A DNA stretch of 64,000 nt from an uncultured Atopobiaceae bacterium (GTDB lineage: Bacteria; Actinomycetota; Coriobacteriia; Coriobacteriales; Atopobiaceae). Of the stretch, positions 8,589 to 61,589 are shown one piece after another. The notes beneath the pieces were generated by a model that saw nothing but the letters and a program-made list of their open reading frames with translations, did no database searches and had not been told where the DNA came from. Each line of letters begins with the position of its first letter. The stretch's first letter is position 1. Where the stretch lies: positions 124,001 to 188,000 of the forward strand of contig CALUNW010000002.1 of NCBI GenBank assembly GCA_944322145.1. The letters run 5' to 3'. Made by a program: the position numbers and the translations under genes.

Positions 8589-8732
8589 CGTCGCGCCGGT
8601 CTTCTCGCGCGCCCGCGGCTGACGTGGGGGCGGACCCGCCGCTCGAAGCCCAGGCGCAGCTCCGCGCCAGCGCCGCCGAAGCTGCGCGTCAGCTCCGCGC
8701 AAGACGCCCCTGCTACCCTCATGTCGTGACGC

Positions 8733-8762
8733 TTGACTTAGAACGAGTGTTCGGGGTACCAT
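8733..8762 (+). promoter_or_regulatory. recA promoter with LexA box
   Basis: A -35 TTGACT (8733-8738) and -10 TACCAT (8757-8762) are 18 bp apart. The spacer holds a perfect inverted repeat GAACGAGTGTTC at 8741-8752, which matches the Gram-positive LexA box GAAC-N4-GTTC. LexA bound there would block RNA polymerase, so recA is very likely SOS-controlled by the LexA encoded at 20594-21241. Confidence 0.82.
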
Positions 8763-8794
8763 CACCGCGAAGGAACGCTGGCAAGGGAGAGAGC

Positions 8795-9889
8795 ATGGCC
8801 AAGACCAAGGGCACCATCAAGGAGATTCACCCGCGCACCACCGGCGAGGAGCGGGACAAGGTCCTCACCGCCACCACCGAGGAGATCGAGAAGAAGTTCG
8901 GCAAGGGCGCCATCATGCGCTTCGGCGACGACGGCCCCAGCCTCGAGGTCGAGGCCATCCCCACCGGCTCGATCGCCCTCGACGCGGCGCTTGGCATCGG
9001 CGGCGTGCCGCGCGGGCGCATCATCGAGATCTACGGCCCCGAGTCTTCGGGCAAGACCACGCTCTCGCTCGAGATTCTCGCCGAGGCGCAGGCCATGGGC
9101 GGCGTCGTCGCCTTCATCGACGCCGAGCACGCCCTCGACCCGGGCTATGCCGCGCGCATCGGCGTGGACATCGACGAGGTCCTCATCTCCCAGCCGGACT
9201 ACGGCGAGCAGGCGCTCGAGATCTGCGACATGCTCGTGCGCTCCGGCGCCATCGACGTGGTGGTCGTGGACTCCGTCGCCGCCCTCACCCCGCGCGCGGA
9301 GATCGAGGGAGAGATCGGCGACTCCACCGTCGGCCTGCAGGCCCGCCTCATGAGCCAGGCCCTGCGCAAGCTCGCCGGCTCACTCTCCAAGTCAAACACC
9401 ACCTGCATCTTCATCAACCAGCTGCGCGAGAAGATCGGCGTCATGTTCGGCAACCCCGAGACCACGCCCGGCGGCCGCGCGCTCAAGTTCTTCTCGTCCG
9501 TGCGCATGGACATCCGCCGCATCGACTCCATCAAGGTCAACAACGAGGTCGTGGGCAACCGCGTGCGCGTCAAGGTGGTCAAGAACAAGGTGGCCCCTCC
9601 CTTCAAGCAGGCGGAGTTCGACATCATGTACGGCCAGGGCATCTCCAAGGAGGGCTCGATCCTCGACATGGCCGTGGACTACGATATCGTGACCAAGTCC
9701 GGCCCCTGGTTCTCCTACGAGAAGGAGCGCCTCGGCCAGGGCCGCGAGGCGGCGAAGGAGTTCCTCGCCTCCAACCCCGAGCTGATGGACGAGATCGACC
9801 ATCGCGTGCGCGTCGCGTGCGGCCTCGAGCTGGGCGACGAGCGCGTCGGCGAGGTCCTCGACGTCGACCTGCCCGCCACCGAGCTGTGA
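8795..9889 (+). CDS. recA: Recombinase RecA
   Basis: RecA forms filaments on single-stranded DNA, drives strand exchange and triggers LexA self-cleavage. The 364-residue protein has Walker [10 protein letters not shown] near residue 87, Walker [20 protein letters not shown], the L2 region [27 protein letters not shown] split across about 210-235, and a short acidic tail. An N-terminal extension of about 20 residues precedes the usual [20 protein letters not shown] 8795 follows AAGGGAGAG at a good distance; an in-frame start at 8624 would run through the promoter and LexA box. recX overlaps its stop, so both are damage-induced together. Confidence 0.97.
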
Positions 9890-10542
9890 GCGAGACCGCA
9901 GTCGGCTGGGAGGTCTCCGTTCCCGAGCGCGCCTCCGGCGCCGTCCGCGAGCGCCGCGCGAAGCTGCGCCTGAGCTCTGCCGCGGGCGGCGAGGAGGTCG
10001 TGCGCGTGCCCGTTGCCGTGGGCAAGAGGCTCGCCGCGGCCGGGGAGTCCGCCGCGCTCACCCGCGCGGAGCTTCTCGACCTCTTCGACGAGGTGGCGCT
10101 CTCGTGCGCCCGGGCCCGCATCGCGGATCTGCTCGGCAGGCGCGACTACACCTCCCTCGAGGTCTCCGGCAAGCTCGCCGAGGAGGGCTACGCTCCGGGC
10201 GTCGCCGAGCGCGCGCTCGCGTGGGCGCGCTCGTGCGGCCTGGTCGACGACGCCCGCTACGGGGCCGCCTTCGCCCGCGCTAAGGCGCTCGCGGGATGGG
10301 GGAGGCTCAAGGTCGAGCGAGAGCTCGCCCGTCGCGGCGTGAGCGTCGATGAGGTCGACGGCTGGCCCGAGGAGTTCTTCGACCCCGGTGACGAGCTCGA
10401 GCGCGCCCGCGCGCTCGCCGCGCGCAGGCGCCTCACGGGCAGAAACGACTGCGAGAAGATTGCGCGCTTCCTCTATGGCAGGGGCTTTTCTCGCACGGTC
10501 TCCCTCGACGTCGCGCGCGAGGTCGCGGGCGACCGCTCCTAG
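9886..10542 (+). CDS. recX: RecA regulator RecX
   Basis: RecX binds RecA filaments and limits their growth. The 218-residue protein has three-helix repeats typical of the family: [20 protein letters not shown], then [44 protein letters not shown] in the middle region, then [15 protein letters not shown] and a third degenerate repeat at the end. GTG 9886 overlaps the recA TGA by 4 bp (GTGA), the classic recA-recX coupling; a longer frame upstream would run inside recA and is not needed. Sequence conservation in RecX is low, so the call rests on the repeats and the position. Confidence 0.88.
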
Positions 10543-10790
10543 ACGGTCTACCTGAGGCGCATTTGACATAAGGGTCTCTCAGACGCTACGATATGAGGGC
10601 TATTGGAGCGCATTCTCACGCTGGTTGGCCAGCTGATGTCCATACAGTCGGATTCGTCACGCTAGCTGTTGCACAGGAACTACCTCTACGAAGGCGCCAG
10701 GACTGCACCTCCGATGGCGGGTTCCATGGCGCGTGCGCCATGGTCTCCAGAACCACGCTACAAACAGAACGCAACACCTGAGGAGCAGCC
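10543..10790 (+). promoter_or_regulatory. rny promoter and long structured leader
   Basis: This gene-free stretch holds a strong promoter: TTGACA at 10563-10568 and TACGAT at 10587-10592 with an 18-bp spacer. That leaves a leader of about 190 nt before the rny start. Within it 10724-10743 is a perfect palindrome (CCATGGCGC on one side, GCGCCATGG on the other), about 50 nt upstream of the start codon. Such a stable leader hairpin could tune RNase Y mRNA stability. A 62-codon frame at 10593-10781 lacks a ribosome-binding site and family features, so I do not call it. Confidence 0.6.
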
Positions 10791-12344: not shown

Positions 12345-12355
12345 CGGGGAAGGGT

Positions 12356-13879: not shown

Positions 13880-15246
13880 GCGCCGCGGCCGCCGCCCTCG
13901 TCGGCAAGACCTACTGCGTCAAGACCTTCGGCTGCCAGATGAACCTCCACGACTCCGAGCGCGTGGCGGGCCTTCTGGACTCCTGCGGCTGCATCTGCGT
14001 GCCCGAGCCCGACGAGGCCGACATCGTAGTCTTCATGACCTGCTGCGTGCGCGAGAACGCCGACCAGCGCCTCTACGGCCAGGCTTCGGCCATGGTCTCC
14101 GCGCCTACGCCGCCCTCGGGCCGACGCGTGGTCGCCATCGGCGGCTGCATCGCCCAGCGCGACGGCGAGCGCATCCGGGAGCACATCCCCTGCGCCGACG
14201 TCGTCTTCGGCACGAGCGCGCTCGCCAGCCTGCCCGACCTTCTCTCCGAGGCGTTCGCTGACGACGGCCACGCGGTCGAGGTCGATACGGTCGAGGAGGG
14301 CAGGCCCTTCTCCACCGACCTCCCGAGCCGCCGCGAGAGCGCCTTCCACGCCTGGGTACCCATCATGACCGGGTGCAACAACTTCTGCACCTACTGCATC
14401 GTGCCCTACGTCCGCGGCCGCGAGAAGAGCCGCACGATGGAGAGCATCGTCGCCGAGGTCGAGGCGCTCGTCGCCGACGGGGTCCGCGAGGTGACGCTGC
14501 TGGGCCAGAACGTCAACTCCTACGGGCGCAACATCTACGGCGAGCCCCGCTTCGCCGAGCTGCTGCGTCGCGTCGCCGCCACGGGCGTGGAGCGCATCCG
14601 CTTCACCTCGTCAAACCCCAAGGACCTCTCCGACGAGACCATCGCCGCCATGGCGGAGCTCCCCGCGGTCATGCCGCACCTGCACCTCGCCGTGCAGAGC
14701 GGCTCCACGCGCGTCCTCAAGGCCATGAACCGCAGCTACACGCGCGAGGAGTACCTCGACCTCGTGCGCCGCCTGCGCGCGGCTATGCCCGGGCTCGCCC
14801 TCTCGACCGACATCATCGTGGGCTTCCCGGGGGAGACCGAGGAGGACTTCCTGGACACGCTCTCGCTCGTCCGCGAGGCTGCGTTCTCGTCGGCCTTCAC
14901 GTTCATCTACTCCCGACGCCCCGGCACGCCGGCGGCCAAGATGCCCGACGACACGCCCCACGAGGTCATCCAGGGGCGCTTCGACCGCCTCGCCGAACTC
15001 GTCGCCCAGCAGGCGCACGACGCCAACCAGGCGGACCTCGGCACGCTGGCGAGCGTGCTCGTCGAGGGGCCGTCCAAGCGCGACGACGGCGTCATGGTGG
15101 GGCACAGCGAGAAGAACCAGACCGTGCACTTCTCCCTGCCCGAGGGCGTCTCCGCGGGAGAGCTCGTCGGCAAGATCGTCGGCGTGCGCGTCGAGGAGGC
15201 GCGCACGTGGTACCTGCGCGGCACCGTCGAGAGCGAGCCTCGATGA
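13876..15246 (+). CDS. miaB: tRNA-2-methylthio-N6-dimethylallyladenosine synthase MiaB
   Basis: MiaB is a radical-SAM methylthiotransferase that modifies A37 of tRNAs already isopentenylated by MiaA. The 456 residues include the N-terminal cluster Cys in KTFGCQMN, FMTCCVREN and GGCIAQRDG, the radical-SAM motif CNNFCTYCIVPYVRGREKSR near residue 170, and a C-terminal TRAM domain. ATG 13876 overlaps the spoVS stop (ATGA); the protein before it reads MSAAAAALVGKTYC. Its own stop overlaps miaA by 4 bp. So both steps of the same tRNA modification are translationally coupled. The partner RimO at 6132 has the same fold but a different substrate. Confidence 0.96.
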   Translation: MSAAAAALVGKTYCVKTFGCQMNLHDSERVAGLLDSCGCICVPEPDEADIVVFMTCCVRENADQRLYGQASAMVSAPTPPSGRRVVAIGGCIAQRDGERIREHIPCADVVFGTSALASLPDLLSEAFADDGHAVEVDTVEEGRPFSTDLPSRRESAFHAWVPIMTGCNNFCTYCIVPYVRGREKSRTMESIVAEVEALVADGVREVTLLGQNVNSYGRNIYGEPRFAELLRRVAATGVERIRFTSSNPKDLSDETIAAMAELPAVMPHLHLAVQSGSTRVLKAMNRSYTREEYLDLVRRLRAAMPGLALSTDIIVGFPGETEEDFLDTLSLVREAAFSSAFTFIYSRRPGTPAAKMPDDTPHEVIQGRFDRLAELVAQQAHDANQADLGTLASVLVEGPSKRDDGVMVGHSEKNQTVHFSLPEGVSAGELVGKIVGVRVEEARTWYLRGTVESEPR

Positions 15247-16187
15247 GCCTGCCGCGCGTCGCCTGCGTCGTCGGCCCCACCGCCTCGGGCAAGAGCGCCG
15301 TCTCCGAGCTCGTGGCGCTCGAGCTCGGCTCGTCGGTGGTCTCGGTCGACGCGATGCAGGTGTATCGCGGCATGGACGTGGGCACCGCCAAGACGCCCGT
15401 CGCCGAGCGGCGCGCCCCGCTGCTCATGGTCGACGTGGCGGACCCGCTCGAGAGCTACTCGGTGCAGCTCTTCCAGGAGCAGGCGCGCGCCTGCGTCGAC
15501 GCGCTGCTCGCGGAGGGGCGCCTGCCGGTCCTCGCGGGCGGCACGGGCCTCTACCTCAACGCCGTCATAGACGAGATGAGCTTCCCGTCGGGCGAGAAGG
15601 ACGACGAGCGTCGGCGCTCCTACGAGGCGCTGGCGGCGGAGCGCGGGCCCGAGGGGCTCCACGCCCTTCTCGCCGAGCGCGACCCCGACAGCGCGGGGCT
15701 CATCCATCCCAACAACGTCCGTCGCGTGGTGCGCGCCCTCGAGATGCTCGACGAGGGCGTCTCCTACGCCCGGCACCACGAGGGGCTCCACGTGCGGCGG
15801 CCCCACTACGACGCCCGCATCTGGGGGCTCACGATGGCACGGGAGCGCCTCTACGCGCGCATCGACGAGCGCGTGGACCAGATGGTCGCGGCGGGGCTCG
15901 TGGAAGAGGTCCGCGGCCTCGCCGAGCGCGGGCTCACGACCGAGCGCACCTCCGGCCAGGCCATCGGCTACAAGGAGGTGCTCGAGGCGCTCGCCGGCAC
16001 CTGCACGATGGACGAGGCTATCGAGCAGGTCAAGCTGCGCTCGCGGCGCTACGCCAAGCGTCAGCTCTCGTGGTTTCGCCACGACGGTCGCGTGAGGTGG
16101 ATCGACCTGGACGCCTGCGACGTCGAGGGCGCCGCGCGGCAGATCGTGTCCGAGCTGCGGGAGGAGGCGGCCGATGGGGAGGTTTAA
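15243..16187 (+). CDS. miaA: tRNA dimethylallyltransferase MiaA
   Basis: MiaA transfers the dimethylallyl group to A37 in tRNAs that read codons starting with U. The 314-residue protein opens with the P-loop VGPTASGKS (about residue 10), then SVDAMQVYRGMDVGTAK, the substrate loop GGTGLYLNAVID, and RQLSWFRHD near the C-terminus. ATG 15243 overlaps the miaB stop, and its own 3' end overlaps the hflX start by 14 bp. The miaB-miaA-hflX run matches Gram-positive gene order except that mutS/mutL and hfq, often present here, are absent. Confidence 0.95.
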   Translation: MSLPRVACVVGPTASGKSAVSELVALELGSSVVSVDAMQVYRGMDVGTAKTPVAERRAPLLMVDVADPLESYSVQLFQEQARACVDALLAEGRLPVLAGGTGLYLNAVIDEMSFPSGEKDDERRRSYEALAAERGPEGLHALLAERDPDSAGLIHPNNVRRVVRALEMLDEGVSYARHHEGLHVRRPHYDARIWGLTMARERLYARIDERVDQMVAAGLVEEVRGLAERGLTTERTSGQAIGYKEVLEALAGTCTMDEAIEQVKLRSRRYAKRQLSWFRHDGRVRWIDLDACDVEGAARQIVSELREEAADGEV

Positions 16188-17487: not shown

Positions 17488-17559
17488 CCTTCGTCGGCAC
17501 TCTTCAGTTATGTACTTAACTTTGCAGGTTATCCACTGGATCAGTAGCGCGTTGCAAGC

Positions 17560-17652
17560 CGAGAAGTGCCCACGGCTCCGGACCCAAATCCGGATTTGGG
17601 TGCTTGGTGGACCCAAATCCGGATTTGGGTCCGGAGTTGAGGGCGCTTCTCG
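17560..17652. repeat. Palindrome-doublet element, copy 1 (93 bp)
   Basis: The element begins CGAGAAGTGCCC and ends GGGCGCTTCTCG, an inverted terminal pair. Between lie two palindromes (starts 17580 and 17609, exactly 29 bp apart) of arms ACCCAAAT and ATTTGGGT with centre CCGG in both. A second 93-bp copy is at 19581-19673. Confidence 0.85.
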
Positions 17653-17703
17653 ACTGGTGTGGGGTGTCACGGCTGAGAGGTAAACTCCAGGGAGAAGTTC
17701 TTT

Positions 17704-17835
17704 ATCGATAAAACGGTCGGGCCCAACGGGCGCCACGGCCCCGGACACAAATGAGGATTTGGGTTCCCGACGGACACAAAAGAGGATTTGGGTCCGGAGC
17801 TGTGGCGGTCGCTGGGCCCAGTAGCATCAATCGAT
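17704..17835. repeat. Large inverted repeat around palindrome doublet 2
   Basis: A doublet at 17743-17766 and 17772-17795 (29-bp period, both centres GAGG) is flanked by imperfect inverted arms of about 40 bp. The arms begin and end with ATCGAT (17704-17709 and 17830-17835) and share GGGCCC and GTGGCG blocks. The left arm, read on the other strand, also matches 19488-19557 at about 80 percent by eye. Confidence 0.7.
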
Positions 17836-17886
17836 GGAGATAGTAAACTTAGAATATAACCCCGCTCCAAGATGCGCCCCGCGGGG

Positions 17887-17960
17887 CGAGAAGTGCCCTG
17901 CGCCCTGGACACAAATCGTCATTTGGGTCCGCCGGCGACACAAATGACGATTTGGGTCCG
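17887..17960. repeat. Palindrome-doublet element 3
   Basis: CGAGAAGTGCCC opens the element at 17887. The two palindromes (17907-17930 and 17937-17959) have complementary centres, CGTC and GACG, so they can pair with each other into one stem of about 23 bp with a GCCGGC loop, as well as each folding alone. The right-hand CTTCTCG box is missing; the next gene's stop is 39 bp away. Confidence 0.75.
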
Positions 17961-17998
17961 TCACGGGGTCGAGCCTACGACGTCCCGCCGCGCGGACC

Positions 17999-19093
17999 CT
18001 ATGCGGGGAGCGTCTTTCCTCTGAAGTCCGCGGCACCCGCCATGACGATTCCGCGCCTCCGTCCCGTCCAGTGAAGGCCGTCCGCCGCCGCGAGCTCCGC
18101 GCACAGCCGCTCGCGGCGCTCGCGCCACGACGCCTGAGAGCGGGCGGAGACGCGCGGCTCGGGGACGCCTAGGTCGTTGCGGATGCACGACACGAGCCAG
18201 TCGAGGTAGTCGACGTCGTCGTAGTGCTCCTTGTCGATTTCGTAGTCCTTGATGTCGGCGGCGAGCAGCTCGTTTCTCCGGTTGATGTCGCGCCCCTCCT
18301 GAGCCTCGTCACGGTGATAGCCTCCTTGGTAGTCAAGGGCGACGCCGAGAAACGGGGTGGGAGCGTCCGTCTCGGAGCCCGGCGCGAGCAGGATGATGTC
18401 GGGCTTTCGTATCCGCTTTGACACGCCCACGAGCAGCGCGTCGGAGCGCTCGACGGCGACCGGGTCGTTGAGCGCGACGACGTCAAGGCCGTAGCCGCCG
18501 CGTATCGGCTCGAACTCCAGACGATGCGTCGAGCGGCTCTCCTGCGGCGACCCCGAGCGATCCCGGGCCCGGGAGAGCGCCCTTCTCAGCTTGGCGACGC
18601 AGCGCGCGGTTCCCACCTTGTCAAGAAACGCGGAAATGCGCGCGACGCTGGTGAGGGGCGTGTTGCGCTTGACGAGCCCCGTGCTCGAGCGGGGCTGGAT
18701 TCCGTAGTGCCCGCAGAGCTCGTCGACGAGCATGAGAAGCTCAAGGTCGGTCGCGTACTCCGCCATCTGCAGCGCGACGAGCTCCGGGGTGGAGCAAAAC
18801 ACGCCAGGGTCGAGCGAGAAGAACGAGCCGTCGGGATAGCCGGGCAGCGCCAGGTGCGCCACCACTTTGGGCGAGGGATGGCGGCCGGCGGACGATGCGG
18901 CGAGCACGTGAACCGGGAGCGTTGCGCCCGAGAGTGCGCTCACCTGCGCGAGGACGGGCTCGATCTCTCGTGCCGTGGGCATGCGGCCGGGCAGCTCGGG
19001 CCGTCGTGTCGCGGAAGACGACTCAACGAACCTGAACGAGTCCCATCTGCGGAGGACCTCAAGTGCCGTGGTATGTGAAAGGATGATATCCAT
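17999..19093 (-). CDS. Orphan protein, possible PD-(D/E)XK-like fold
   Basis: I do not recognise this 364-residue protein with certainty. It opens MDIILSHTTALEVLRRW, like a group of Coriobacteriia proteins with an AbiEi- or DUF559-like layout. Near residues 255-310 it has FLGVALDYQGGYHRDEAQEG, then DINRRNELLAADIKDYEIDK, a pattern of D, x-YxG-H and D..R...L that resembles the DUF559 nuclease-like fold, but a clear E-x-K catalytic pair is not evident. There is no signal peptide or membrane segment. ATG 19093 has no Shine-Dalgarno sequence, so leaderless translation or another start is possible. It stands alone between two palindrome arrays (17560-17960 and 19441-19810), as a recently acquired or mobile gene would. 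A toxin/antitoxin or defence role is possible but unproven. Confidence 0.55.
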   Translation of the reverse strand: MDIILSHTTALEVLRRWDSFRFVESSSATRRPELPGRMPTAREIEPVLAQVSALSGATLPVHVLAASSAGRHPSPKVVAHLALPGYPDGSFFSLDPGVFCSTPELVALQMAEYATDLELLMLVDELCGHYGIQPRSSTGLVKRNTPLTSVARISAFLDKVGTARCVAKLRRALSRARDRSGSPQESRSTHRLEFEPIRGGYGLDVVALNDPVAVERSDALLVGVSKRIRKPDIILLAPGSETDAPTPFLGVALDYQGGYHRDEAQEGRDINRRNELLAADIKDYEIDKEHYDDVDYLDWLVSCIRNDLGVPEPRVSARSQASWRERRERLCAELAAADGLHWTGRRRGIVMAGAADFRGKTLPA

Positions 19094-19440
19094 GCAGGGA
19101 GGATACGACCTGTTTGAGCTGCTGTGAAGTCAGAGTGTGGGCCGGAGCTTGCACGTAGCTATCGGGAGCTGAAACGTACCGCTCGTTGGTTCTGAACGTC
19201 GCTGGCCACACCGTTCAAGCGGTTTGAAACATTGGGTCGGAAAAAATACGAAGGTCTGCCGCTGGCGGAGAAGGACCTGCCGCTGGCGGTAAAATGTAGA
19301 CTCAAGCCGTCTCAAGCGTAATCGTGCGGCACGCGGCGCGCGCGACACCGTTGGAAAAATGTGCTGTTGACCTGCCAAATTACGCTTCGCCCTCAGCTGG
19401 CGTTGTAATCTCATGGGACGCGAATCATCCTCTGCTGTCC

Positions 19441-19557
19441 GCACAATCGTCATTTGTGTCGCGGGCGGACCCAAAACCGGATTTGGGTCCGAGGTCGTGG
19501 CGGTCGTTGAGCCCGATGTTTCTTATCGATTAAGAACTTCGACCTGGAGTTAACCTC
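19441..19557. repeat. Palindrome doublet 4 with right arm
   Basis: Two palindromic units at 19441-19460 (centre CGTC) and 19467-19490 (centre CCGG) are followed by an arm (19488-19557) that is an inverted copy of the left arm of doublet 2 at about 17684-17742, including TTATCGAT and CCTGGAGTT. Confidence 0.65.
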
Positions 19558-19580
19558 TGGGCTGGGGACACCTCGCCGGC

Positions 19581-19673
19581 CGAGAAGTGCCCGCCACTCC
19601 GGACCCAAATCCTCATTTGTGTCCGCCAAGAACCCAAATCTGGATTTGGGTCCGGAGATGAGGGCGCTTCTCG
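19581..19673. repeat. Palindrome-doublet element, copy 2 (93 bp)
   Basis: Same length and ends as 17560-17652: CGAGAAGTGCCC at 19581 and GGGCGCTTCTCG ending at 19673. Units start at 19601 and 19630 (29 bp), with centres CCTC and CTGG. Confidence 0.85.
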
Positions 19674-19764
19674 GCTCGCGGGGCGCCGCTGAGCTGGAGG
19701 ATAACCCGCGAAGTTAAGTCTGTAACCAAAGGGAGGCAACGGCGTTGGGAGCCCCTACCGGCGC

Positions 19765-19810
19765 GGACCCAAATCCGGGTTTGGGTGCACCGAGGGCGAG
19801 CGAGAAGAAC
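19765..19810. repeat. Single palindrome unit plus GAGAAG box
   Basis: One unit at 19765-19786 (arms ACCCAAAT and GTTTGGGT, centre CCGG) is followed by CGAGAAGAAC at 19801-19810. With the CTTCTCG at 19667 this makes an outward box pair around the unit. Confidence 0.65.
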
Positions 19811-19823
19811 CTTGGGGTTGAGG

Positions 19824-26664: not shown

Positions 26665-26788
26665 GAGGGCCCGGCTCCGGGTCCTTCTCGGTCGATCGCT
26701 CTTCTCGAAAAACCGTGATAATATATCTTATGTAAAGTAGAGAACGAGCAGAAATGGAGGGGTCTCACATCGAGGCTCCTCCTCTTCT
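26665..26788. other. Boxes and AT-rich stretch left of the insertion sequence
   Basis: A GTCCTTCTCG box (26681-26690) and a GCTCTTCTCG box (26698-26707) lead into an AT-rich stretch (26707-26745, with GATAATATATC) unlike anything nearby. An ATG at 26753 opens 12 codons (MEGSHIEAPPLL) that run into the insertion sequence. This may be the remnant of a small gene or just a promoter-like stretch. Confidence 0.45.
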
Positions 26789-35129: not shown

Positions 35130-35240
35130 GTCCTTCTCGGCCGTTCTTGACCTCTCGCGGGGACAAGAACCGGGCCCGGGTCGCCTGATTCGACTCCTCG
35201 GGCCCGGTTGTGGTCCTCTCGTGGGGGCAAGAACGCGGGG
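35130..35240. repeat. GTCCTTCTCG box and nested hairpins after serA
   Basis: A GTCCTTCTCG box (35130-35139) is followed by a hairpin with arms GTTCTTG (35144) and CAAGAAC (35164), and by a GC-rich stem CCGGGCCCG (35171) / CGGGCCCGG (35198). The last one may end serA transcripts on the minus strand, but no T run is present. Confidence 0.5.
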
Positions 35241-36417: not shown

Positions 36418-36430
36418 GGCTTCCTCCCTC

Positions 36431-36559: not shown

Positions 36560-36561
36560 GG

Positions 36562-37929: not shown

Positions 37930-39028
37930 CTACTCTCCAAAGTGCTCTGCGATTTGGCGCATGCGCTCAGATTGAGCCACACCAAACGGACAGCGGGTGT
38001 CGCAGTGGCCGCAGCCAACGCATTCGCTCGCGTGGTGCTCGAGGTTGTGGTAGTGCTCCACGGCAAGCTTATCGTCAACGAGCGCGAGGTCGTAGTACTT
38101 GTTCACCAGTCCTATCCGGATGCCCACAGGGCAGGGCTGACAATGGTTGCAGTAGACGCAGCTCGCGATTCGGCTCTCAGGCGCCATCTCGGCGAGCTCG
38201 GAGTGGTCGCGCTCGACTTTCGGCGCGTCAAAGAAACCGAGAAGTGTGCGCAGGTCGTCAACGTTGCGCACGCCTGGCAGCACTGTGAGCACTCCAGGGC
38301 GGTCGAGCGCGTACTGGATGCACTGGTAGCGCGTGAGCGCGCGGCCGAAGGGGGACTTAGCGGCGTCGAGTAGCTGACCTCCCGCAAAGGGCTTCATGAC
38401 GGCAATGCCCACCCCGTGGCTCTCGAACTCGCGGTAAAGCGCCATTCGGTCGCTCGCCTCGCCGCGCCCGTACTCCGACTCGTCTGTGTAGTCGTACATG
38501 GGGTTCAGGCTGAACATTCCGAGGTCCATCTCGCCTGTAGCGAGGAAGCTCCGGGCAATCTCCACGTTGTGAGTCGAGAAGCCCAGGTGGCGGATGGTTC
38601 CCTCGCCACGCCTGCGCAGTGCGTACTCCCAGACGGGCCCGTTCATGACCCGGTCGAAGTCGGCGTTCTCGTCGATGCAGTGGATGAAGGCGAAGTCCGC
38701 GTACTCCACCCCCCGGGATTGCCAGGTGCCGTTCGAACTCCTCGATGCTCGCCTTGGGATCCGTGGTCCAGGTGTAGTCGTGGCTGCGGTAGTCCGCTCC
38801 CAGATGGACCTGCACATGGACCTCGTCGCGATGACGCGCGATGGCGCGGGCCATGGGTTCGAAAGGCATGTCGTTGGTGGTCACGTAGTCAAAGTGGTTG
38901 ACGCCGGCCTCGATGGACTCGTCAACGGTGCGCTCGATCTCTGCGACCGACCCCTCGTGGAGGCTGCCGGCACCAAGGCCGATGACGCTGATCTTCTCGT
39001 CGCCGTGCGGCAGGGTGCGGTACTCCAT
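37930..39028 (-). pseudogene. Aldo/keto reductase with 4Fe-4S domain, frameshifted
   Basis: The intact family member would have about 365 residues: an aldo/keto reductase barrel (MEYRTLPHGDEKISVIGLG, with the catalytic block NHFDYVTTND) and a C-terminal two-cluster ferredoxin part (CVYCNHCQPCP and CVGCGHCDTRCPF). The N-terminal third is read in one frame from ATG 39028 (GGAGGG upstream) and the rest in another. The frames meet near 38709-38720, at a CCCCCCGGG run; removing one base restores HLAIPGVEYADF. This is either a real inactivating slip or a sequencing error in a homopolymer. Because both halves are well conserved and have no other damage, an error or a very recent mutation is likely. 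Confidence 0.82.
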
Positions 39029-39030: not shown

Positions 39031-39501
39031 TCAACCCTCCAATGACTCCAACGAAAGCGTGACGGCAACGTCGCCCGTGCCGAGCGCGTCCTCCCAGCCC
39101 GTGAGGTCGATGACGTGTGCGAGCGGTGTGTAGCTCCAGCTGTTGGTCCCGTAAAAGATGACGATCTGATTACCCTGGTAGAGCACGACGTCGCCGGGCT
39201 CGGTGGTGATCGGCGCGTCCTGCGTGGGTAGCTCGCTCCCCAGCGGCCCCACCTTCTCAAAGCCGGCGTAGTCGGAGAGCGAAACCGCGACCGGCCCCCC
39301 TTCCATCATCTCCACAAGTGCCGTCGCAGCCGAATTGCTCTCAAGCGAGGCGGTGAAGTCAACCCCGTTCACGTTGACGGTCATTTTCGTCACGGTAGCC
39401 TCCTCTGTGACGGTTTTGGCTGAGTGTGTCTCCTCTTCCGCGGGCGAAGACAGAGTGCAACCCACGAGCAAAGACGCGGCGAGAAGGACGACCGCAAGCA
39501 C
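39031..39501 (-). CDS. Lipoprotein with cyclophilin-like fold
   Basis: The 156-residue protein has a lipoprotein signal with lipobox LLVGC (Cys 15), a short spacer, and a domain (about 40-156) of the cyclophilin-like type seen next to flavodoxin and aldo/keto reductase genes: MTVNVNGVDFTASLESNSAA, then GDVVLYQGNQIVIFYGTNSWSYTPLA. Family members have no proven activity; prolyl isomerase activity is not expected. GTG 39501 is preceded by AGGAGA. The aldo/keto reductase gene follows 2 bp away, and DUF3737 precedes 7 bp away, so the three are one transcript. Confidence 0.8.
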   Translation of the reverse strand: MLAVVLLAASLLVGCTLSSPAEEETHSAKTVTEEATVTKMTVNVNGVDFTASLESNSAATALVEMMEGGPVAVSLSDYAGFEKVGPLGSELPTQDAPITTEPGDVVLYQGNQIVIFYGTNSWSYTPLAHVIDLTGWEDALGTGDVAVTLSLESLEG

Positions 39502-45645: not shown

Positions 45646-46114
45646 GGCTCCCCTTTCGCCGTTAGGGTCATCGTTCCCGGCTGGCAGTACGCTCAGACAC
45701 CCGGTGCGGCGAGCGGTCGGGGCCGCGCGGGTTCTTCTCCGTGGCGCGCCGCGCGCTGCCGCGGACCCAAATCCGGATTTGGGTCGGGGGCCGGGTATCA
45801 CCCGGCCGCTCGGCCGCCGCAGCCCGGGAGCGCCCTCCGCCCGCGCCGCAAAACCGCGATTGTGGGTAAGCGAGCCCCCGTCGTTCTTCTCGACCCGATT
45901 CTCGCCCCACCTTTGCCGATTGTGTGCAACACCTTTTATGCGGGCCGCCCTCCGGCATCAAAGATGTTGCACACAACCGCCTCGGAGCCTGCAGCCGAGA
46001 AGGACCTCCCTGCCGAGAAGGATCTCGAGCTCACGCCGCGCCGCCCGCGGAACTGTTCGTTGTGCCGAACCCCTCCTCTGCTATGCTGTGCCAACAGTTA
46101 CGGAAGGGGTCGTC
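45646..46114. other. Gene-free stretch between divergent glp-like and regulator genes
   Basis: This 469-bp gap holds a single palindrome unit (45763-45785, centre CCGG), boxes GTTCTTCTCC (45731), GTTCTTCTCG (45883), CGAGAAGGAC (45996) and CGAGAAGGATC (46014), a hairpin (45920-45976), and the weak promoter of the regulator (TTGTGC at about 46060, TATGCT at about 46082, 16-bp spacer). Confidence 0.65.
45883..46005. repeat. Boxed hairpin cassette (GTTGTGTG type)
   Basis: GTTCTTCTCG (45883-45892) and CGAGAAGGAC (45996-46005) bracket a hairpin with arms TTGTGTGCAACA (45920-45931) and TGTTGCACACAA (45965-45976) that extends inward (CTTT/AAAG, ATGC/GGCAT). Confidence 0.8.
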
Positions 46115-47380: not shown

Positions 47381-47511
47381 GTCCTTCTCGCCAGGAGGTT
47401 CTCCGCGAAATTCCGACAGTTTGAGGCCCGTGTTAACGTACCAAACTGCCGGTTTTTCGCGGAGAACGGGGTGGGCACTGTGGACTAGGGAGACGCGCAG
47501 TCGAGAAGGAC
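47381..47511. repeat. Boxed hairpin cassette (TTCTCCGCG type)
   Basis: GTCCTTCTCG (47381-47390) and CGAGAAGGAC (47502-47511) are perfect inverted copies. Between them a hairpin has arms TTCTCCGCGAAA (47399-47410) and TTTCGCGGAGAA (47455-47466), continuing inward with ACAGTTTG / CAAACTG. Confidence 0.85.
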
Positions 47512-47679: not shown

Positions 47680-49641
47680 ATGAGAAGAAGGTTGTTTGGA
47701 CTGGCGTGCGCCCTGGCACTGTTCGTTGGGCTGATGCCCGTGCCCGCGCTCGCCCTGGAAGGGGTCTACGTGGCCCTGGGCGACAGCATCGCCGACGGGT
47801 ATGGCCTCGCCGAGGACGAGCAGGCGTTCCCGGAGCTCGTCGCCGCCGAGCGCGGGTACGAGCTCAAGACGGTCACCTCATCCGAGGGCCTGACGTCCGC
47901 CGATCTGCTCGCGCAGCTAAGCGACGCGAGCGTGGCTGCCCAGGTGGCGTCCGCCGACGTCATCACCATCACGGTCGGCGGCAACGACCTCATGGGCGCG
48001 CTGTATGACTACCTCGCGGCGCAGACGCTCGGCACCATGACCGCCGAGCAGATCGAGGCGATGCTGACCGGCGGCAGCGGGGCGCTCGACCTTGGCAATC
48101 CTGCGGTCTCCCTGGTCATGGGCAAGCTTGCGGACTTCCCCGCCTCCGAGCAGGCGACCGAGGCGATAGCGACGCTGGGGACCAACCTCGCGGACATCGT
48201 TTCCGGCATCAAGGGAGCTAACCCTGACGTGACCATCGTCGTCACCAACCAGTACAACCCCTACGGCCATCTCGACGATGTCGTGGTCGCCGCCGTCGTC
48301 TCCGCCTTCGACCAGGGCGTTCAGACGCTCAATGCCGCGCTGCAGAATCTTGCGACGCCTGCCGGCGTGCCCGTCGCCGACGTATATGCCCTCTTCGACG
48401 CCTCCGCGGCGGCACCCTGCAACGCATGGGTCGAGGGCACGATGGCCAACCTCGACTTTCATCCCAACGCTCTTGGCCACGAGCTGATCGCTCAGGCGGT
48501 CGAGGCGCAGCTGCCTGCCGCTGATCCGGACCCCGAGCCGACCCCGGACCCCGAGCCGACTCCGGATCCCGAGCCCGGTCCCAACTGGACCGAGGTCGCC
48601 CTTGAGGTCGCCGGCGCCGAGCCGGGCGCGACCGTGACGGTGGACATGGACGGAACGACCGAGGTCCCCGCCGCCGCGCTCGCTGCCCTTGCCGGACGCG
48701 ACGTGACGGTCAGGCTCGAGGTGAGCGCTGGCGTTGCTTGGGAGATCGACGGTGCCGACGTCCCGAAGGACGTCGAGCTCTCCGGCATCGACCTCGGAAT
48801 CGAGCTCAACACCACCGGCATTCCGTCCAATCTGGTCGGCCTCGTCTCCGGCGCTCTCGGCTCCGTGCAGGTGACGCTGGCCCACGACGGCCCCTTCGGC
48901 TTTGAAGCCACGCTCGTCGTGTCCCTTGGTGATGTCCCCGCCGGCGTCTGCGCCAACGCTTACAGCTACGACGAGGCATCCCAGTCGCTGCGCTACGAGG
49001 GCACGGCCGTCGTGACCCCTGAGGGCGAGGCGCGTCTCACGGTCGACCATGCCTCCCATTGGCTCGTCTCCCTCGATGTGCGCTCGCATGCCCTTTCCTT
49101 TGCAGACGCCGAAGAGGGCCGGTGGTACTCCGAGGCCGTGCGCTGGGCGTGGCTGTCCGGCGCCATGCGCGGCTACGGCGACGGCACGGTCTTCGGCGTG
49201 GGCGACGACCTCACGCGCGCCCAGATGGCCGGCGTGCTCTATAACCTGGCGGGCAAGCCCGACGTCTCCACTGCGGGCCTGCCGTCCGACTGCAATCCGA
49301 ACGAGTGGTACGCCGAGTGCGTGGCATGGGCGCTCTCCGAGGGCGTCTTCAACGGCTACGGCGACGGGTCTACCTTCGGGCCCGACGACCCGCTCACCCG
49401 CGAGCAGGCCGCGGCGGTGCTCCACAACGCCGCGGGGGAGCCGGAGGCGGAGGCGGACCTGATGTCCTTCTCGGACGCGGACGAGGTGTCCCCCTGGGCG
49501 CGCGAGGCGCTGGCCTGGGCCGTGAGCAGCGGCGTCGTCAACGGCGTCGACGTCGAGGGCGGGCGCGAGCTCCAGCCCGGGCGCGCCTGCACGCGCGCCG
49601 AGATGGCGGGCCTCATGATGAACCTCGCCGCCCGCGGCTAG
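47680..49641 (+). CDS. Secreted SGNH/GDSL hydrolase with three SLH domains
   Basis: The 653-residue surface protein has a signal peptide (1-25, ending PVPALA), an SGNH hydrolase domain, a Pro-rich linker (PDPEPTPDPEP, about 284-305), a beta-rich domain (310-465) and three S-layer homology repeats (470-653; GAMRGYGDGTVFG, GVFNGYGDGSTFGPDD, GVVNGVDVEGG). SGNH residues are the Ser in VALGDSIADG (36), GGND (about 99) and the Asp/His pair in DFHPNALGH (about 260). It is probably an esterase or lipase held on the wall by SLH binding. TAAGGAGG precedes ATG 47680; a longer frame upstream has no signal peptide start. The SLH-coding end is nearly identical in DNA to that of the 58144 protein. Confidence 0.9.
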   Translation: MRRRLFGLACALALFVGLMPVPALALEGVYVALGDSIADGYGLAEDEQAFPELVAAERGYELKTVTSSEGLTSADLLAQLSDASVAAQVASADVITITVGGNDLMGALYDYLAAQTLGTMTAEQIEAMLTGGSGALDLGNPAVSLVMGKLADFPASEQATEAIATLGTNLADIVSGIKGANPDVTIVVTNQYNPYGHLDDVVVAAVVSAFDQGVQTLNAALQNLATPAGVPVADVYALFDASAAAPCNAWVEGTMANLDFHPNALGHELIAQAVEAQLPAADPDPEPTPDPEPTPDPEPGPNWTEVALEVAGAEPGATVTVDMDGTTEVPAAALAALAGRDVTVRLEVSAGVAWEIDGADVPKDVELSGIDLGIELNTTGIPSNLVGLVSGALGSVQVTLAHDGPFGFEATLVVSLGDVPAGVCANAYSYDEASQSLRYEGTAVVTPEGEARLTVDHASHWLVSLDVRSHALSFADAEEGRWYSEAVRWAWLSGAMRGYGDGTVFGVGDDLTRAQMAGVLYNLAGKPDVSTAGLPSDCNPNEWYAECVAWALSEGVFNGYGDGSTFGPDDPLTREQAAAVLHNAAGEPEAEADLMSFSDADEVSPWAREALAWAVSSGVVNGVDVEGGRELQPGRACTRAEMAGLMMNLAARG

Positions 49642-49650
49642 CTTCGATAC

Positions 49651-49710
49651 CGGGCCGGTTCCGAACGTTTCGGATGACAGTAAACGACCGGGGCCGGCCC
49701 GCTATTCTCG
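49651..49710 (+). terminator. Hairpin family D, after the first SLH gene
   Basis: CGGGCCGGTTCCGAACGTTT (49651) pairs imperfectly with the AAACGACCGGGGCCGGCCCG side ending at 49701, then CTATTCTCG follows. The stem starts 10 bp after the stop codon. The same hairpin follows the second SLH gene at the same distance, so I read it as a terminator. Confidence 0.7.
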
Positions 49711-49732: not shown

Positions 49733-49804
49733 CGCCGGGTAAGAGCTTCTTGCGAGAACGGGGCCCGATTGGGCTCCGTTCTCGCATATTTCTCTTACTC
49801 GGCG
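49733..49804. repeat. Hairpin family C, copy 1 (72 bp)
   Basis: Arms begin GCCGGGTAAGAG and end CTCTTACTCGGC; the centre has TGCGAGAACGG / CCGTTCTCGCA. A nearly identical 72-bp copy is at 58312-58383. Confidence 0.88.
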
Positions 49805-49815: not shown

Positions 49816-49917
49816 GTTCTTCTCGCCCGCGAAGCCCCTCGCCGCCACGGACCCAAATCCGGATTTGGGTTCTCGGCGGACACAAATGAGGATTTGGGTC
49901 CGGCAGTCGAGAAGGAC
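49816..49917. repeat. Boxed palindrome doublet
   Basis: GTTCTTCTCG (49816-49825) and CGAGAAGGAC (49908-49917) bracket a doublet with units at 49849-49870 (centre CCGG) and 49878-49901 (centre GAGG), again 29 bp apart. Confidence 0.85.
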
Positions 49918-50085
49918 CTCAAGCCCATACGGCGCCTGCCGAAAGTGTTCGCTAACCCGAACCCGTTCTCGATTTCGCTGCCCCACGCGACAAGGCGGCC
50001 GTTATGGAGTGCGTCGCTTGTCGCGGCTCTCTCATGCTGAGGCGAGAAGGACCCGCCGTCGAAGAGCTTTCTGGCGCCACCCCCC

Positions 50086-56800: not shown

Positions 56801-58144
56801 CGCTCCGCGGCGGACACGACGCCGGTTCCCAACCCGCTCTACGTGGGCGACGCCGAGATCAGGGACTGGAACGAGGTCGACGGCGGCGACGTTGTCGCGG
56901 GGCTCTCGATCGGGCTGCTCGGTGCGGGGCCGGGGACCGAGGCCGGCAGCTCAGCCGGCACGTTCAACCTCTATGGCGGCACCATCACCGGAAACACGGC
57001 GCCGGTCGCAGGCGGGATCTACGCGGGCGGCTCCGTGACCATCGGGACGGACGGAACCACTCCCGCGGCGGTCTCCGTCACCGGCAACACGTCCGGGAAC
57101 CTCTACGTCCCCGCAGGGGTCACGGTCGAGCTCTCCGCGACGCCTGCCGCTGGCTCCAAGGTCGGCGTGACCATGGAGAAGGCCCCGGGCCTGTTTGCGA
57201 CCGCGACCAGCGAGGTTGCGAGCGCTTCTCGCGCATGCTTCACGAGCGATAGCGGGACCTACTACGTGACGTCTCAGCAGGACGGCCTTGCGCTGGCATA
57301 CGTGCCCGTGGCGCCCACCTACGAGCCCGAAATCGAGGTGCCCGGGGGCGGCGGCACCGTCACGACCAACCCTCGCTACCCCGAGCAGGGCGACGAGGTC
57401 ACGATTACGCCCGTGCCCGACGAGGGCAAGACGGTCGATACCGTTCAGGTTGTCGACAAGGACGGCGAGCCCGTCGAGGTCGTCGACAACGGTGACGGCA
57501 CCTGGACGTACAAGCAGCCGGCCGGTTCTGTGACGATCACGGTCACCTTTGTCTGCGACGGCGGGGAGCTCTGCCCGAGCGCGCACCTCGTGGACGTCGA
57601 CCAGTCGAAGTGGTACCACCTCGCGATCGACTGGGCCGTCACGCACGGCGCGATGCGCGGCTACGGCGACGGCACGGTCTTCGGGCCGGATGATGTGCTC
57701 ACCCGCGCCCAGATGGCCGGCGTGCTCTACAACCTGATGGGCCAGCCTGAGGCCGTGGTCGACCGGCTGCCGGGCGACTGCGACGCGTCCTCCTGGTACG
57801 CCGAGTGCGTGGCGTGGGCGCTCGAGGAGGGCGTCTTCAACGGCTACGGCGACGGGTCTACCTTCGGCCCCGACGACCCGCTCACCCGCGAGCAGGCGGC
57901 GGCGGTGCTGATGAACGCGGCGGAGCTCTCCGGCGCCGACACGTCGGCGCGCGCGGGGCTGTCCGGCTACCCGGACGCCGGCGAGGTGTCCGGCTGGGCC
58001 CGCGAGGCGCTCTCGTGGGCCGTCGCCGAGGGCGTGCTCCACGGCGTCGACGTCGAGGGCGGCGGCCGCGAGCTGCAGCCCGGGCGCGCCTGCACCCGCG
58101 CCGAGATGGCGGGCCTCATGATGAACCTCGCCCTCCGAAGCTAG
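53837..58144 (+). pseudogene. Large SLH surface protein, C-terminal part after the in-frame stop
   Basis: The frame continues from the upstream gene directly after the TGA. A possible GTG restart at 53891 has no Shine-Dalgarno and no signal peptide, so this part is likely not exported alone. From that GTG the 1417 residues hold four pairs of an InlB B-repeat-like module (GYEVASI ... FEMPAADVTVSA at about 180, 360, 535, 715) and a fibronectin type III-like module (DNGAVVTxYELAVTLDGKPVEG), then a beta-helix (790-1105; GGxITGNxA turns), one more B-repeat, and three SLH repeats (1230-1417). It is probably an adhesin. Sequence error at 53834, a real pseudogene, or stop read-through are the three options. 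Confidence 0.7.
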
Positions 58145-58153
58145 CGTCGATGG

Positions 58154-58278
58154 CGGGCCGGTTCCGGACGTTCCGGTACTCGGAAACGACCGGAGCCGGC
58201 CCGTTATTCTCGCCACCCGATGCCGGGCCGGTTCCGGACGTTTCAAGACGCCAAAACGTCCACGACCGGCCCGCTATT
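58154..58278 (+). terminator. Two tandem D hairpins after the second SLH gene
   Basis: Both begin CGGGCCGGTTCCGGACGTT and end with a GCCGGCCCG or GACCGGCCCG arm, followed by TTATTCTCG and CTATTCTTG. The first begins 10 bp after the stop. They resemble the single D hairpin after the first SLH gene. Confidence 0.7.
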
Positions 58279-58311
58279 CTTGGTCGCCTCGCCCCTCCTG
58301 GCGCCCGAGCA

Positions 58312-58383
58312 CGCCGAGTAAGAGTTATCTGCGAGAACGGGGTCCGATTGGGCTCCGTTTTCGCATATTTCTCTTACTCGGCG
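58312..58383. repeat. Hairpin family C, copy 2 (72 bp)
   Basis: CGCCGAGTAAGAG (58312-58324) and CTCTTACTCGGCG (58371-58383) are exact inverted arms; the centre TGCGAGAACGG / CCGTTTTCGCA is shared with 49733-49804. Confidence 0.9.
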
Positions 58384-58624
58384 AGGTTGCTGGCCCGGCC
58401 CGGCGGCCCCCCGCACTTCTCGCGCGCACTCATGAGTGCGGGCATCGAGTGCGGGCTGTTCTGGGCCCGAGGCGCGTCGAGTGCGCGGTCCTTCTCGGCA
58501 GTTGGCGAGAAGTGCGCTCATCAAGCACGCGCCGGCCCGCACTTGATGTGCGCGGCGAGAAGTGCGGGCGGGATCCCGGTGTTTGTCGAGAAGTGCGGGC
58601 CGCCCGCGCCCGCCGCGCTGGCCC

Positions 58625-60454: not shown

Positions 60455-60499
60455 GCCGACCTCCTGAGTTCTGTCCCGTGGATAGTATACGGGCCGCAC

Positions 60500-60651
60500 G
60501 TCCTTCTCGCCTGGCGCGCGACCGGCGGGCCCATGCGATTACCTACTTCAAAAGCATGTAGCAATGGGGGTCCCGGCGAGAAAAACCGGTGCCGGATGCC
60601 CGTTGCCACATGGTTTTGAAGTAGGTAACGCCGCTACGAGCCGAGAAGGAC
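60500..60651. repeat. Boxed hairpin cassette (TTACCTAC type)
   Basis: GTCCTTCTCG (60500-60509) and CGAGAAGGAC (60642-60651), with one more CGAGAAGGAC at 60660, bracket a 90-bp hairpin. Its arms TTACCTACTTCAAAA (60539-60553) and TTTTGAAGTAGGTAA (60614-60628) are perfect and continue inward (CATGT-GCAA-GGG). It lies between the starts of the ABC-F gene and the end of nfo. Confidence 0.88.
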
Positions 60652-60679
60652 CGACCGGCCGAGAAGGACGCGCAGCCCG

Positions 60680-61525
60680 CTACTCCCCCGCCGCCAGGCC
60701 GCGGAGCAGCGCGATCTCCGCCGCCCAGCCGTCGAGCCCGTCCTGCGGGGTCTCCAGCACCATGGGCAGCCCGGTCAGGCGCGGCTCGCGGACCACGGCG
60801 CGGAAGGTCTCGAGCCCGAGCGTCCCCGCACCGATCCTCTCGTGGCGGTCCTTGCGGCTGCCCAGGGGGTTCTTGGAGTCGTTGAGATGCAGCGCGCGCA
60901 GGCGACCCAGCCCGATCGCGCGGTCGAACTCGTCGAGCACGCCGCCGAGGTCGCCCACTATGTCGTAGCCCGCGTCGGCCACGTGGCAGGTGTCCAGGCA
61001 GACGCCGAGCAGCTCGTCATGCTCAACGCCGTCGATGATGCGCGCGAGCTCCTCGAAGCTGCGCCCGACCTCGGTGCCCTTGCCCGCCATGGTCTCCAGC
61101 AGCACCGTCGTGGCCTGTCCCTGGACCAGCACCTCGTTCAGGCCCTCGCAGATGAGGCGGATGCCCTCGTCGACGCCCTGCTTGACGTGCGAGCCGGGGT
61201 GGAAGTTGTAGAGGTGGCCGGGCAGGCGCTCCATGCGCCCCAGGTCCTCGCGCATCGCGCGGCGCGCGAACTCGACGGTCTCGGGCTTGGCGGAGCAGAG
61301 GTTGTAGGTGTAGGGCGCGTGCGCCACGAGCGGGCCGATTCCGCGCTCCTCGAGCGTGGCCAGAAACGCGGCGAGGTCGTCGTCCTCGAGCTCGCGCGCA
61401 TTGCCCCCGCGCGGGTTGCGCGTGAAGAACGCGAACGTGGTGGCGCCGATGGACACGGCGTCCCGGGCCATCGCGGCATACCCCGCCGCCGTCGAGAGGT
61501 GGCAGCCTATTCTGAGGTCAGGCAT
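60680..61525 (-). CDS. nfo: Deoxyribonuclease IV (AP endonuclease)
   Basis: Endonuclease IV cuts DNA at abasic sites in base-excision repair. The 281-residue TIM-barrel protein has the zinc ligands of the family: GCHLST, LVAHAPYTYNLCS, VLLETMAGKGTE, CLDTCHVADAGYD, LHLNDSKNPLGSRKDRHERIG and LETPQDG. AAGGAG precedes ATG 61525. No LexA box is seen. It follows the 97-bp MITE-like element and stands apart from coaBC. Confidence 0.95.
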   Translation of the reverse strand: MPDLRIGCHLSTAAGYAAMARDAVSIGATTFAFFTRNPRGGNARELEDDDLAAFLATLEERGIGPLVAHAPYTYNLCSAKPETVEFARRAMREDLGRMERLPGHLYNFHPGSHVKQGVDEGIRLICEGLNEVLVQGQATTVLLETMAGKGTEVGRSFEELARIIDGVEHDELLGVCLDTCHVADAGYDIVGDLGGVLDEFDRAIGLGRLRALHLNDSKNPLGSRKDRHERIGAGTLGLETFRAVVREPRLTGLPMVLETPQDGLDGWAAEIALLRGLAAGE

Positions 61526-61589
61526 CTTCGCTCCTTGGGTTGCGCCGCGCGAGGGTCCGGGCGGCTCGTTCTTCTCGGTATCCGCTCCC

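Follow-up and report, generated by a model that had tools for sequence, protein, structure and literature searches.

What are the short boxes that recur through the intergenic DNA of a 64,000-nucleotide stretch of an uncultured Atopobiaceae genome? This stretch (the window; C2:124001-188000 of a genome of 2.40 Mb in 25 contigs) carries many copies of the word CGAGAAG or its complement, and an earlier note on the same DNA had listed about 30 of them in non-coding DNA and proposed that they bracket hairpins as the common ends of units with swappable cores. The full box, GGCGAGAAGRAC, is quite probably a 'self' tag that resembles a DNA uptake sequence (DUS) and is used within the Atopobiaceae by Thermophilibacter/'Olsenella' and some sister genera. 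By the available genomic tests it behaves like a DUS, and the claim made here goes no further than that likeness. In what follows, G numbers denote genomes, g numbers genera and L numbers DNA stretches, and g1 is the genus of the window's genome. This genus was identified as Thermophilibacter/'Olsenella', family Atopobiaceae, from the relatives and the tree of RNase Y, which showed 93-96% identity to the proteins of an uncultured Atopobiaceae bacterium, Olsenella profusa An794, Olsenella sp. An270 and Candidatus Olsenella pullicola, and 92% identity to that of Thermophilibacter gallinarum.

The window contained 121 copies of CGAGAAG or its complement, of which 92 were inside or overlapped called genes and 29 were non-coding (15 on the plus strand and 14 on the minus strand). 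Genes were called with a home-made hexamer caller, and individual coding or non-coding assignments may be wrong. In the 7,004 bases of non-coding DNA in the window, 500 first-order Markov simulations gave a mean of 1.55 cores and a maximum of 6. The strong excess reported in the earlier note was therefore borne out; that note had put the non-coding DNA at about 5 kb. All 30 of the cores that it listed were non-coding by our gene call and 27 were exact, while those at 19267, 40571 and 45731 were one base off the exact core. Two further non-coding cores (38993 and 39480) were absent from its list, and the coding copies, 92 of the 121, had gone unnoticed. A search of the window against Rfam at gathering scores returned one tRNA and nothing else.

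Alignment of 187 non-coding cores from two genomes gave the 12-bp consensus GGCGAGAAGRAC, with about 12 informative positions and only a small signal beyond about 13 bp. In 57.9 kb of non-coding DNA from three genomes, GCGAGAAGRAC was found 85 times in perfect form and 102 times with a single mismatch, a ratio of 1.2; the ratio printed for two Neisseria species in the cited part of PMC3630211 is 1.15-1.45. Twelve of the 102 mismatches fell in CGAGAA and 90 in the flanks, which showed that the six-base core is near-invariant and that the flanks are tolerant. Across the whole genome, GCGAGAAGRAC was present in 649 copies (311 and 338 by strand), and the reversed word, which served as the control, in 8 and 6. 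Whole genomes were covered by such exact-pattern counts only, and k-mers were counted in samples of about 71-324 kb per genome. In the 35.7 kb of non-coding DNA within the 324 kb sampled from the window's genome, CGAGAAG was the top 7-mer (132 copies vs 9.7 expected from an order-2 Markov model), and its reversed form occurred 12 times. The non-coding sample of the relative G012, in which CGAGAAG likewise ranked first among 7-mers, held 56 copies vs 3.6 expected.

Coding DNA was also enriched. With synonymous codons shuffled gene by gene as the null, CGAGAAG was the most over-represented coding 7-mer (431 copies vs 237 expected in the window's genome, and 192 vs 101 in G012). The 12-mer in antisense to genes was found 18 times vs 0.4 +/- 0.6 expected in the window's genome and 12 times vs 0.2 +/- 0.5 in G012. 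The sense form, which encodes Glu-Lys-Asp/Asn, was barely above the codon expectation (15 vs 11.6 and 6 vs 3.9, respectively). The pattern CGAGAAGRAC occurred 218 times in the 324-kb sample, with 68 + 55 copies in coding and 86 in non-coding DNA; the remainder beyond these 209 lay in short genes, overlaps and edges. Its density was about 5.5-fold higher in non-coding DNA (86 in 36.0 kb) than in coding DNA (123 in 281.4 kb). The comparison of non-coding with coding counts in this genome and in relatives, which the earlier note had suggested, thus gave an excess in both, denser in non-coding DNA. Uptake sequences are described in the cited parts of PMC3630211, PMC2397512, PMC5031613 and PMC12616744 as words of about 9-12 bp whose copies, numbering hundreds to thousands, lie in the core genome and seldom in accessory DNA; their dialects keep an inner core, and they often form inverted pairs as terminators. 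The box, like them, was found in hundreds of copies far above chance, on both strands, in coding and non-coding DNA and beyond codon usage.

The distribution of the box between chromosomal and acquired DNA was examined using conjugative elements. The phage portal domain PF04860 was found in none of 31 genus genomes, and conjugative elements therefore served as the marker of foreign DNA. Before any box was counted, stretches with the type IV coupling protein PF02534 were picked in the window's genome, G007 and G067; weak matches in G025:C11 and G002:C1 were left out. They are 10-20 kb blocks around the coupling protein and may contain chromosomal DNA. Annotation covered ten proteins in L255/L256, four in L260 and none in L257, L258, L259, L261 and L262. 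The annotated stretches encoded coupling proteins, the element on C8 also a relaxase, serine recombinases and weakly matching TraC/TrbL-type proteins, and L260 a TraG-type P-loop ATPase. The conjugative stretches of the window's genome held 5 boxes vs 47.0 expected (Poisson p 8e-15), those of G007 held 7 vs 22.1 (p 1.9e-4), and that of G067 held 1 in 20 kb. Their non-coding DNA in the three genomes had no box in 16.5 kb, vs 86 in 36.0 kb in the sample of the window's genome. The GC content of the stretches in this genome was.685-.703, except for the last 9.9 kb (.615). A polysaccharide-synthesis stretch with a GC content of.57 held 3 boxes in 20 kb. As is described for uptake sequences, the core genome was rich in boxes and mobile or accessory DNA was poor.

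The box was then followed through 149 genomes of the order. GCGAGAAGRAC exceeded the control in all ten g1 genomes, nine of which had 204-453 copies per strand and one, G136, 44/33; the count in G005 was 247/257. Within the family the pattern was also raised in g16 (189/175), g11 (43-92 per strand), g20 (41-64) and g18 (19-48), and outside it in one genus, g62 (41/36), while the remaining genomes of the order had at most 23 copies per strand. G094, of g16, was identical in RNase Y to Parafannyhessea umbonata, and g11 clustered with Lancefieldella rimae. A combined scan of coding and non-coding DNA in 17 genome samples gave CGAGAAG as the top 7-mer in the window's genome, G012, G007, G039 and G094, and weakly in G121 and G136. 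In both g10 samples the top 7-mer was CCGAGAA and the top 9-mer was TGCCGAGAA. The scan found no comparable word in Collinsella, and g15 was uncertain. Genome-wide, TGCCGAGAAAC was present in 114/122 and 116/118 copies in two g10 species and in 1-6 copies per strand in six g1 genomes, and the g1 box was present in 2-4 copies per strand in g10. The non-coding logo of g16 was CGGGCGAGAAGAGC (16 sites). Three g16 genomes held 40-54 copies of GGCGAGAAGAGC per strand vs 189/175 of GCGAGAAGRAC in G094, and g16 is therefore mixed; where such counts set an 11-mer beside a 12-mer, the lengths differ and no direct comparison is meant. In G117 (g18), GGCGAGAAGAGC reached 106/112 vs 28/19 for the control. 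The flanks differed among the genus logos, while the CGAGAA that they share follows from how the alignment was built. In the RNase Y tree, g1, g20 and g11 grouped together and g10 stood apart. The data showed clade dialects with a common inner core, clear for g1 vs g10 and mixed in g16. No flank consensus was seen around CGAGAA in the sampled non-coding DNA of G136 (complete, 2.16 Mb; L166, L207-L211, L273-L274).

Other words also stood out in these scans. In G070 (Eggerthellaceae; L227-L231, G070:C1:1-100000), TCACGTGAAACAT, which we take to be half of a ParB-type site, was extremely enriched, and TCACGTGAA occurred 42 times in non-coding DNA vs 0.1 expected, so the scan detects other genome marks too. 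CGGGAAGCGT was over-represented in the coding DNA of G078 (g13; L161-L165), and GAAGCGTCCA in both coding and non-coding DNA of G090 (g15; L167-L171); each may be a distant dialect or chance.

Eight sister species were aligned with the window genes, where 23 sites were mappable and 12 were not. In the aligned genes, box differences between species were substitutions and not insertions. The plus-strand coding box at 6734..6743 was exact in the window only: the window had GGCGAGAAGGAC where two relatives (L052 and L054) had GGCGAGAGGGAC, one substitution inside the box. Three minus-strand boxes lay antisense to genes, at 3923..3932 (exact in the window and 2 of the 8 species, with near-misses in others), at 4956..4965 (exact in the window and one species, L052) and in recA at 9487..9496 (exact in the window and 4 species). 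Those on the plus strand at 15108..15117 and 15593..15602 were exact in the window and in 5 and 2 of the species, respectively. In the matching 21-kb region of the relatives there were five box-bearing intergenic regions, three of them without a stem.

Taken as a self tag, the box would work as follows. A DNA receptor on the surface of competent cells, for which a minor pilin of the Tad/Flp type or ComEA are candidates, would bind CGAGAA with its genus-specific flanks. Box-bearing DNA would then enter via ComEA/ComEC and recombine into the chromosome. An allele in which a point mutation creates a box would thereby be over-transmitted, so that boxes would build up in the core genome where the sequence can change, and DNA spread by conjugation would gather few. 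Genes for such machinery are present: ComEC and ComEA are encoded at C2:90737-92414 in the window's genome, and a locus on C6 encodes a T2SSE-family ATPase, two T2SSF proteins, TadE, a ParA-like (TadZ-type) protein and a sub-threshold RcpC-like protein, a set that identifies it as a Tad-type pilus locus. Of 60 order genomes, 58 carried the ComEC domain, that of the window included, and ComEA and the T2SSE-family ATPase were each present in 30 of 30. Being nearly universal in the order, this machinery is weak evidence, and its presence or absence failed as a discriminator.

Several observations weigh against the uptake reading. Uptake, receptor and drive are all inferred from the genomes; no receptor for the box was identified, with no search aimed at a ComP-type one. 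The literature searches showed no report of competence in Atopobiaceae; none of the papers listed names Olsenella, and the one match for the family together with natural competence concerns the oral microbiome in colitis. The machinery was equally present in genera without boxes. The 17-sample scan found no comparable word in g12, g13, g19, g21 or G102 (g18). G136, of the same genus, had only 44/33 boxes and yet carries a ComEC frame (816 aa) and the T2SSE ATPase. The dialects are not exclusive, since g16 holds more GCGAGAAGRAC than GGCGAGAAGAGC, and TGCCGAGAAAC was mildly raised (at most 20 per strand) in g83, g84, g95, g97, g20 and some g11. Core near-misses in the 57.9 kb of non-coding DNA were fewer than a model of slow decay would suggest. 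In coding DNA of the conjugative stretches, boxes numbered 13 vs 6.1 expected from codons (7 vs 1.7 in antisense). Finally, the 20 kb of L266 (G007:C1:540001-560000) held no box for no evident reason. L266 contains three ABC exporter genes and may be acquired DNA.

The main rival is a Chi-like mark, at which an enzyme of the RecBCD/AddAB/AdnAB type would stop degrading self DNA and start recombination. We consider this unlikely, although such a mark would also be a short, lineage-variable word enriched in the core genome (variation among lineages is described for Chi in the cited part of PMC3630211), and the enriched chromosome, the poor conjugative stretches and the over-representation in coding DNA fit it as well. 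The box is balanced between strands, both in the whole genome (311/338) and at four places on the complete G007 chromosome (16/15, 10/13, 10/7 and 14/18), a balance that was judged without a mapped replication origin and that speaks against a replication-oriented mark. Chi is typically replication-oriented and 5-8 bp long. The box, unlike Chi, has no strand polarity, is longer, with its roughly 12 informative positions, and is denser in intergenic DNA, by about 5.5-fold over coding DNA.

It is decidedly improbable that the box is bound by a nucleoid-associated protein, or by one for chromosome segregation, which would thereby mark the host chromosome or protect it from a silencing or defence system. 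The genome-wide spread, the preference for non-coding DNA and the poverty of foreign DNA agree with such a site, and the scan did find the TCACGTGAAACAT mark in the first 100 kb of G070. Sites of this kind are usually palindromic and regionally placed, whereas the box is non-palindromic and strand-neutral, lies in genes in both orientations and at four spread places in G007, and varies in dialect flanks around one core.

The proposal of the earlier note, that the boxes terminate mobile or RAYT-type units whose hairpin cores can be swapped, was rejected and is very improbable. Its description of outward pairs around hairpins was correct, but this arrangement is not specific to the box. The 29 non-coding boxes of the window are, by variant, CGAGAAGACC at 8598..8607 (-); CGAGAAGTGC at 17560..17569 (+), 17887..17896 (+), 19581..19590 (+), 58413..58422 (-), 58506..58515 (+), 58556..58565 (+) and 58587..58596 (+); CGAGAAGCGC at 17643..17652 (-) and 19664..19673 (-); CGAGAAGAAC at 19801..19810 (+), 45883..45892 (-), 49816..49825 (-) and 61568..61577 (-); CGAGAAGGAC at 26681..26690 (-), 35130..35139 (-), 39480..39489 (+), 45996..46005 (+), 47381..47390 (-), 47502..47511 (+), 49908..49917 (+), 50043..50052 (+), 58488..58497 (-), 60500..60509 (-), 60642..60651 (+) and 60660..60669 (+), the last in tandem with 60642 at 18 bp; CGAGAAGAGC at 26698..26707 (-); CGAGAAGATC at 38990..38999 (-); and CGAGAAGGAT at 46014..46023 (+), in tandem with 45996 at 18 bp. 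The boxes at 38990..38999 and 39480..39489, non-coding by this gene call, are the two that the earlier list lacked.

In the window's genome, 75 intergenic regions of at least 60 bp carried a box, and 42 of these had a single one. Adjacent pairs were outward in 24 cases, inward in 14, and in the same orientation in 15 (9 with both boxes reverse and 6 with both forward). Together with G012, 47 of 74 adjacent pairs were opposed (30 outward and 17 inward; one-sided binomial p 0.013), and 16 of the 27 same-strand pairs were at most 20 bp apart. Opposed orientation was thus mildly favoured, as the pairing of ends would suggest, but the outward distances in the window's genome were spread over 11-288 bp. 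Inward pairs peaked at 21-25 bp (9 of 17, five of them from one hairpin family of the window's genome, AAGAG...CTCTT, whose stem is the inward box pair), and in G012 one inward pair, located where two genes converge, formed a hairpin resembling a terminator. Of the 74 adjacent pairs, 10 were inward and no more than 30 bp apart, several of them from one hairpin family. Boxes per kb were 3.08 in convergent, 1.99 in tandem and 2.22 in divergent intergenic regions.

The boxes were no closer to hairpins than chance. With box letters masked and box-box stems uncounted, 40 of 124 boxes of the window's genome had a perfect stem of at least 10 bp no more than 50 bp away, vs 36.9 +/- 3.4 for positions drawn at random from the same intergenic regions; in G012 the count was 18 of 48 vs 16.5 +/- 2.4. 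Likewise, 44 of 124 boxes lay beside dispersed repeats, vs 44.7 +/- 4.1 for random places in the same regions and 34.7 +/- 4.9 for any intergenic region. Some dispersed hairpin families do contain boxes. When the DNA enclosed by outward pairs was compared by eye, most of it looked unrelated, apart from a few families that recur, among them the ACCCAAATCC palindromes and GGGTATGTACAC. Y1 transposase genes are present in the window's genome, as the mobile-end proposal would have them; in G005, however, there was no match to PF01797 (the Y1/RAYT transposase domain) despite its 247/257 boxes. In the relatives, the differences in aligned genes were point changes and three of five box-bearing regions had no stem. 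The single boxes, the copies common in coding DNA on both strands, the substitutions, the low counts in conjugative stretches and the lack of a link to hairpins or repeats thus left the common ends without support, while the wider conclusion of the earlier note, that the box is a strongly over-represented word and is probably recognised by some protein, was upheld. Palindromic dispersed repeats share the intergenic regions of the box, which recalls the repetitive extragenic palindromes (REP)/REPIN that are associated with RAYT transposases; the box itself, unlike REP/REPIN, is non-palindromic, is not tied to palindromes and is also abundant in G005, where the Y1 search had no match.

Repeats of other kinds were also seen. 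Near-perfect inverted repeats at 36430-36560 and 61686-61797, with arms of 49 and 54 bp that share GACGTGTTAT and TCGTGCAGAC, are REPIN-like; the Y1 transposase genes are located elsewhere in the genome. GTAAG...CTTACTCGGCG hairpins lie 3' of genes at 40495-40566, 49733-49804 and 58312-58383 (61-90% alike to the reference), with further copies at L019:114, 2209 and 3578, L020:13119 and L022:9974, in all five of which the inner stem is an inward box pair. Two genes, of which the first encodes an SLH-domain protein, share a duplicated 3' end at 49158-49673 and 57646-58176, and the duplication includes DNA past the stop codon. The stretch 17488-19823 encodes a 364-aa protein without a Pfam match and is flanked by ACCCAAATCCGGATTTGGGT palindromes and TGC/CGC-type boxes; its CGAGAAGRAC boxes at 18815 and 19801 had no counterpart in any of the eight sister species.

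A by-product of codon usage, in which Glu-Lys-Asp runs (GAG AAG GAC) in GC-rich genes spill into miscalled intergenic DNA, is hardly credible and was rejected, since it explains much of the sense coding CGAGAAGRAC (68 vs 47.6 expected) but not the antisense 12-mers (18 vs 0.4), the roughly 13-fold non-coding excess, the absence of boxes from 16.5 kb of conjugative non-coding DNA or the control-like counts in most of the order's genera.

We consider it fairly likely that a self-recognition uptake system evolved independently in Atopobiaceae, that its dialects separate genera and its receptor is part of a Tad/Flp-pilus/ComEA machine, and that it is the third family of uptake sequences and the first outside Proteobacteria. 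According to the cited part of a 2025 paper (PMC12616744), Neisseriaceae and Pasteurellaceae are the only families known to use short motifs at this step to distinguish self DNA from foreign DNA. Literature searches, with most subscription journals and bioRxiv preprints outside their reach, found no paper joining 'uptake sequence' with Coriobacteriia and, within the same limits, none joining 'DNA uptake sequence' with Gram-positive and Atopobium; a search for the 10-mer gave matches of which all those listed look like eukaryotic studies. If the uptake reading is true, such a third case, unrelated to the other two and found in gut and oral Actinomycetota, would mean that such tags evolve repeatedly and need neither an outer membrane nor type IVa pili, and it would be an independent case for testing ideas on drive, kin recognition and receptors. 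These commensals, which are hard to handle, would then be predicted to undergo natural transformation, and experimenters would know which tag and dialect their DNA should carry. The box may further serve as a simple marker of acquired DNA in these genomes. G136, in which the box is nearly lost and the machinery kept, may be a natural experiment on the loss of specificity.

Among known systems, ComP-dependent uptake in Neisseria is called an outlier in the cited part of PMC12040237. In the actinobacterium Micrococcus luteus, Flp pili are needed for transformation, and ComEA and ComEC are present without a comG cluster (PMC6370729). The window's genome has a like set of ComEA, ComEC and Tad pilus genes; the cited part of that paper mentions no uptake sequence for M. 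luteus. The uptake signal sequences of Pasteurellaceae (AAGTGCGGT; ACAAGCGGT) resemble the box as genome-wide self tags whose short core is invariant and which come in lineage types (PMC12616744, in the part cited). They differ in the word and in an AT-rich flank extension, whereas the box has only a small signal past about 13 bp. The box also differs from the DUS of Neisseriaceae: compared by eye, the ATGCCGTCTGAA family has the core CTG and GGCGAGAAGRAC the unrelated core CGAGAA, and the box belongs to the phylum Actinomycetota, to a genome with a Tad/Flp-type pilus in place of type IVa pili. In other respects the box and the DUS (ATGCCGTCTGAA and its dialects) are alike, as far as the cited parts of PMC3630211, PMC2397512, PMC5031613 and PMC12616744 describe the latter: both are words of 10-12 bp with copy numbers of hundreds to thousands, occur on both strands and in coding and intergenic DNA, favour the chromosome over accessory DNA, form clade dialects around an inner core and have a near-miss ratio of about 1.2.

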